DNA of 22,145 nt from a virus. The stretch spans positions 1 through 22,145 of IMG/VR virus record IMGVR_UViG_3300036772_000019; one strand, 5' to 3'. The position numbers and the translations under genes were made by a program. How positions within the stretch are numbered: position 1 is the stretch's first letter; each line of letters opens with the position of its first letter. Below are positions 977-1,144 of the stretch, in pieces. Below the pieces are notes generated by a model. The model worked only from the letters and a program-made list of their open reading frames with translations. It did no database searches and was not told where the DNA came from.

Positions 977-1144
977 AATATCCTCCTGATTAGTTGCTGC
1001 AATTTCATCGATCGGTTTCAACGATCGATAACCGTTTATTGATCTATGAGAACAATTGGCAATTAGAATCAAAATAACCACAAATAACACGCGGATGAAT
1101 AACCTTGCCCCGGCAAAGCCTTTTACACAGCGGATGTTATTAAT
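977..1144. promoter_or_regulatory. Divergent regulatory region with a cluster of three GATC sites
   Basis: This 168-bp gap separates the starts of the methyltransferase (minus) and the glycosyltransferase (plus), so both promoters must lie here. It is AT-rich. GATC occurs at 1010-1013, 1023-1026 and 1041-1044, three times in 35 bp, the first two inside CGATCG. They fall between the likely promoter area and the methyltransferase ribosome site (AGGAGG, 982-987). TAGAAT at 1064-1069 on the plus strand matches a -10 hexamer at five of six positions but has no well-spaced -35. On the minus strand TTGCCA (1062-1057) could be a -35 without a convincing -10. Promoter positions are therefore guesses; the GATC cluster is directly visible. 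Confidence 0.5.
981..987 (-). promoter_or_regulatory. Strong ribosome binding site that fixes a TTG start
   Basis: The minus strand reads AGGAGGATATTTTG, a full Shine-Dalgarno match 5 bp before the TTG at 976. It decides the methyltransferase start against the GTG at 1090. Confidence 0.8.

Follow-up and report, generated by a model that had tools for sequence, protein, structure and literature searches.

A candidate Dam/OxyR-type operator before the right-end DNA methyltransferase gene of a Mu-like prophage

Three GATC sites lie close together between two divergent genes of the 22,145-nucleotide stretch of viral DNA analysed here (the window), one gene encoding a DNA methyltransferase (MTase) and the other a glycosyltransferase. 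The question this locus raises is whether the sites mark a control element that responds to DNA methylation and, if so, which gene it would govern and which enzyme would methylate it. An earlier note, made from the letters of the window, had compared the cluster to the Dam- and OxyR-dependent control region of phage Mu mom and, as the phage encodes its own D12-class enzyme beside it, had proposed autoregulation dependent on methylation or phase-variable expression of both genes.

The GATC cluster and its setting

In its left part the window contains the right end of a Mu-like, transposable prophage. The window and two further insertions (L002 and L007) are alike as far as ...GCGCTACA and then run into wholly different flanks, and because these three insertions stand at different sites and differ beyond GCGCTACA, the right end of the phage can be located: the phage begins with TG at position 100, and host DNA occupies bases 1-99. 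The MTase is the last gene before this end, which bears out the mom position that had been assigned to it earlier. When bases 1-125 were searched against plasmids there was no match, and against genomes there were only short weak ones; one frame of the host bases resembles a filamentous-haemagglutinin/CdiA-type gene (a repeat), a name read off a 32-residue peptide. The features of the region are the following, all three GATC sites falling between the MTase gene on the minus strand and the glycosyltransferase gene on the plus strand.

100-200, no strand: right end of the transposable phage, 5'-TGTAGCGCGGCG..., with subterminal TTTGGCAC repeats
221-976, minus: D12-class N6-adenine DNA methyltransferase (MTase), 251 aa, TTG start, DPPY motif, in the mom position
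982-987, minus: Shine-Dalgarno sequence AGGAGG of the MTase, kept in L002 and L007
1010-1013, 1023-1026 and 1041-1044: GATC sites, forming a cluster (1010-1044) that spans 35 bp
1011-1025, plus: predicted OxyR half-site A, ATCGGTTTCAACGAT, 8/10 to ATAGnTnnnAnCTAT, overlapping the GATCs at 1010 and 1023
1042-1056, plus: predicted OxyR half-site C, ATCTATGAGAACAAT, 7/10, overlapping the GATC at 1041
1078-1094, minus: terminator-like hairpin with a T-rich tail, before the MTase and the element and in the MTase direction; similar in L002 and L007
1145-1897, plus: GT25 (LPS-type) glycosyltransferase, 250 aa, divergent from the MTase

The GATC span is intergenic if the MTase starts at TTG 976, a start that fits the MSSPIIPW or MNAPIVPW with which its homologs begin; were the mechanical GTG start at 1090 used instead, the span would fall within the MTase open reading frame. 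The hairpin read from 1094 to 1078 would exclude leftward late transcripts from the MTase and so leave the gene to its own promoter. A sigma-70 promoter scan of the gap recognised none, so that geometry is the basis for placing the promoter and for the presumed sign of regulation. Conserved bases within the element were considered as -10 and -35 boxes of the MTase and rejected as a promoter mark, since they also occur in elements of the opposite orientation. An Rfam scan of the window gave no match.

The GATCs lie at 1010, 1023 and 1041, as the earlier note had placed them, and by numbers alone their clustering is only moderately unusual. The whole window holds 37 GATCs against 77.4 expected, about half. 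When Markov sequences were drawn with the gap's own composition, 93 of 20,000 had three sites within 35 bp; such a triple was also present in 65 of 300 whole-window Markov sequences, in which GATC is about twice as common. Random placement of the 37 sites across the window yields such a triple somewhere in 961 of 20,000 trials (4.8%), and this is the figure that speaks for a chance cluster, whereas the conservation of both the spacing and the second half-site in divergent relatives (see below) already contradicts it, leaving chance with hardly any probability. We judge the cluster to be real on account of that conserved spacing and of the OxyR motif, beyond the clustering statistics.

The OxyR link that had been drawn earlier from the Mu analogy now has a predicted motif lying over the GATCs themselves. 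Half-sites A and C, 16 bp apart and thus compatible with a dimer of dimers of reduced OxyR, together hold 15 of 20 consensus bases at the reduced spacing, which is the best score in the window on either strand (the next best is 13). The same scoring gives 14 for Mu mom and 16 of 20 for agn43, with the same architecture in both. The half-sites retain GATC even where the OxyR consensus calls for other bases, and this points to selection for methylation.

Likeness to known systems and conservation among homologs

In plus-strand order the GATCs are spaced by 13 and 18, and toward the MTase by 18 and 13. This is identical, in the same orientation, to the com-mom region of Mu, so that the likeness to the Mu mom control region proposed in the earlier note holds up in its spacing. 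Mu mom and the window MTase are both modification genes, and each sits at the right end of its transposable phage; the window differs in having a D12 MTase instead of Mom, no Com gene before the MTase, and a start codon much nearer the operator than in Mu. The agn43 (flu) gene of E. coli carries three GATCs at 19/13 with its OxyR half-sites in the same order, and differs from the window in encoding a host surface adhesin and in having one extra base between the first two sites; there OxyR represses and methylation relieves the repression (PMC2909390). Half-site A of P22 gtr, ATCGGTAACAACGAT, has 13 of 15 bases, and the flanking GATCs, in common with that of the window, and the P22 gtr half-sites are bound by OxyR in a manner that methylation abolishes (PMC2909390). 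In gtr of P22 and Salmonella and in opvAB, which is controlled by Dam/OxyR (PMC3350482), the half-sites overlap GATC pairs 13 bp apart, as they do in the window, but P22 gtr has two such pairs 51 bp apart with alternative OxyR sites, an arrangement that the window lacks. Besides repressing, OxyR acts as an activator in both gtr (PMC2909390) and opvAB (PMC3350482).

The earlier note had suggested looking for the cluster in relatives, and it is kept there while the flanking DNA has diverged. All three GATCs stand in register, at most 70 bp from the MTase start, in nine of the 12 closest homologs (L002-L013); the set is partial in L008, L004, L010 and L016, the last three keeping two sites, and none of the homologs L014-L081 has three in register. 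Across 11 loci the mean information content is 1.19 bits per column in the element (0.97 when the GATC columns are removed) and 0.31 upstream of it, and pairwise identity is 0.63 within it against 0.28 in the 90 bp before it. The mean upstream OxyR score is 13 for the first 15 homologs, 9.5 for the other homologs and 9.8 for control windows. A fourth GATC accompanies the MTase homolog of Yersinia pekkanenii, and before the MTases of L012 and L288 a fourth GATC makes the spacing a symmetric 13-18-13. A BLAST search of the 60-bp element against named phages gave no match, and the MTase homologs of Phi06_2974 B, KP12, PhiKM, VP882, MuM16-1 and B3 are without the element; MTase homologs are also located on E. 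coli chromosomes.

Homologs that lack the OxyR element often have something else in its place. In many the leader is conserved and structured, with a GC-rich hairpin followed by GUGAGCC, which pairs with the ribosome-binding site GGCUCAC and does so through covarying pairs (e.g. GUGAUCC/GGAUCAC). RNAalifold recovered the helix, Rfam gave no match to the leader, and it may be a translation-controlling RNA of a kind not yet described. The loci are as follows.

L286 (positions 1050-1206), L285, L026, L030, L031, L034, L036, L042, L045 and L048: structured leader
L058, L059, L061, L065, L066, L068, L072, L074, L077 and L051: structured leader, further loci

In other homologs a Com-like zinc-ribbon open reading frame precedes the MTase (L014, L018, L019, L021-L023, L025, L032, L033, L039, L041, L052, L054, L056 and B3, which is L287), and none of these has the GATC element in register. 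Across the family, control of the MTase thus seems to fall to one or another of three modules.

The element before other prophage genes

We searched genome contigs with the pattern GATCGNTTNNAACGATCN14GATC, which fixes no more than half-site A and the third GATC and leaves half-site C free. It matched 66 loci, 47 of them labelled Enterobacterales or Orbales and 19 unrelated, a raw count that is not scaled to the enteric share of the collection. Among the 31 non-redundant Enterobacterales/Orbales matches, T6, A10, C12, A14 and T15 of half-site C are conserved and that half-site scores 6-8/10, whereas in the 18 non-redundant non-enteric matches half-site C is at background, mostly 3-5/10. Conservation of the half-site for which we had not searched ties the motif to OxyR-like recognition and not to GATC palindromes alone.

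In many enteric prophages the element precedes unrelated genes, often in the orientation it has toward the glycosyltransferase in the window and with the gene start about 70 nt away. The neighbouring gene matched the superinfection-exclusion protein Cor in 11 of 34 cases scanned, and in this Cor set an extended -10 (TGnTAT) occupies a fixed place near +70 from the first GATC. Loci in which the element, with this extended -10, lies some 70 nt ahead of a Cor gene or another small prophage gene include L229, L224, L235, L236, L237, L242, L255, L259, L260, L094 and L099. It appears, then, to be a portable prophage module that is also found before Cor exclusion genes. The literature that we searched, which most subscription papers lie outside, yielded no description of a Dam/OxyR-type element before such MTases or before Cor.

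A methylation-sensitive switch and its alternatives

Three GATCs in register, an OxyR motif, conservation and position are read directly from the DNA. Taken together they make it probable that the MTase is controlled through this cluster, as an OxyR operator that is sensitive to methylation and of the Mu mom/agn43 type; from this we infer OxyR binding, repression as the direction of control, host Dam as the methylator and a heritable two-state switch, with the presence of Dam and OxyR in the phage's host assumed from relatives. While the GATCs are unmethylated, reduced OxyR would bind 1011-1056 as a dimer of dimers, and the bound protein would both obstruct the MTase promoter and keep Dam off the GATCs. 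Should host Dam methylate the GATCs first, OxyR would be unable to bind, and production of the MTase could go ahead. The operator (its nearest GATC) lies 33 nt from the MTase start, and about 20 nt from it in most of L003-L013; a distance of 33 nt leaves no room for a promoter downstream, so that OxyR would overlap or block transcription, as in agn43. Expression of phage DNA modification would in this way be tied to Dam methylation of the phage DNA, as it is in Mu with mom, with an enzyme unrelated to Mom.

Whether the phage enzyme could itself supply the methylation depends on its specificity. The MTase has a D12 domain and the DPPY motif and aligns with Dam and DpnM. The positions by which Dam recognises GATC we take, from Dam-DNA structures, to be K9, N120, L122, R124, P134, R137 and Y138, and all seven are replaced or deleted throughout the MTase family in the protein alignment (from which L004, with a stop codon in its MTase, was left out). 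Against the NCBIfam Dam profile TIGR00571 the MTase scores 111.7, below the cut-off of 114.85. GATC specificity is accordingly not what its sequence predicts, and with the Dam recognition residues absent and the cut-off missed, host Dam is the likelier methylator. Of the earlier interpretation, the mom/OxyR analogy at the MTase is upheld by spacing, motif and conservation, while autoregulation through a GATC-specific phage enzyme is not. A loop in which the MTase keeps itself expressed by methylating the three GATCs could still appeal to its membership of the D12 family, with DpnM and Dam as relatives, and to a different kind of activity: nonspecific adenine MTases were reportedly described by Drozdz in 2012 (work cited in PMC11952428) as replacing mom in other Mu-like phages (Hia5, Hin1523), and a sequence-nonspecific enzyme of that sort could methylate these adenines. 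Hia5 and Hin1523 are likened to the window MTase by their mom position and their class as adenine MTases alone, host Dam would suffice for the methylation, and the family-wide loss of the Dam positions and the low profile score tell against the loop, which we hold to be distinctly unlikely. For M.EcoMIV, another prophage D12 enzyme, the homologs have no known target according to a paper on E. coli ST131 (PMC4659465).

The protein that reads the cluster might also be something other than OxyR, such as a phage regulator (a late activator or the MTase itself) or SeqA, which binds clustered GATCs, and the GATCs might then be incidental to a palindrome; bases 1007-1029 do form a perfect inverted repeat (ATCGATCG/CGATCGAT). 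That the same element recurs before unrelated prophage genes and at host agn43, and that its conserved non-GATC columns coincide with OxyR contact positions, makes this highly improbable. More credence is due to an extension of the OxyR reading to both flanking genes, in which the element might control the glycosyltransferase too: one OxyR complex would repress the MTase and activate the glycosyltransferase, giving the two genes opposite epigenetic states. The divergent layout of the two genes is kept in three phages (the window, L002/L137 and L007/L087), and the glycosyltransferase-ward elements of other prophages, with the extended -10 of the Cor set, offer a pattern for such activation. The window, however, has no extended -10 near +70, and its glycosyltransferase starts 100-110 nt from the element, against about 70 nt for the genes so placed elsewhere; GT25 homologs with 50-52% identity occur in other contexts without the three-site element, and the MTase keeps the element without the glycosyltransferase, the element going with the MTase in L002-L013. 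Joint control is weakened in particular by the lack of the extended -10, and we regard it as doubtful. It is a little more doubtful still that this one operator sets the MTase and the LPS glycosyltransferase opposite to each other, such that lysogens would split into surface-changed cells and phage-DNA-modifying cells.

A methylation-sensitive OxyR operator acting on the MTase thus remains the reading that we prefer, and its setting suggests that the control slot, and not the Mom protein, is what carries the Dam/OxyR logic of Mu mom, an unrelated enzyme here occupying the same slot behind the same operator. The DNA signature finds this predicted operator before many enteric prophage genes and so provides a testable list of candidate phase-variable genes.
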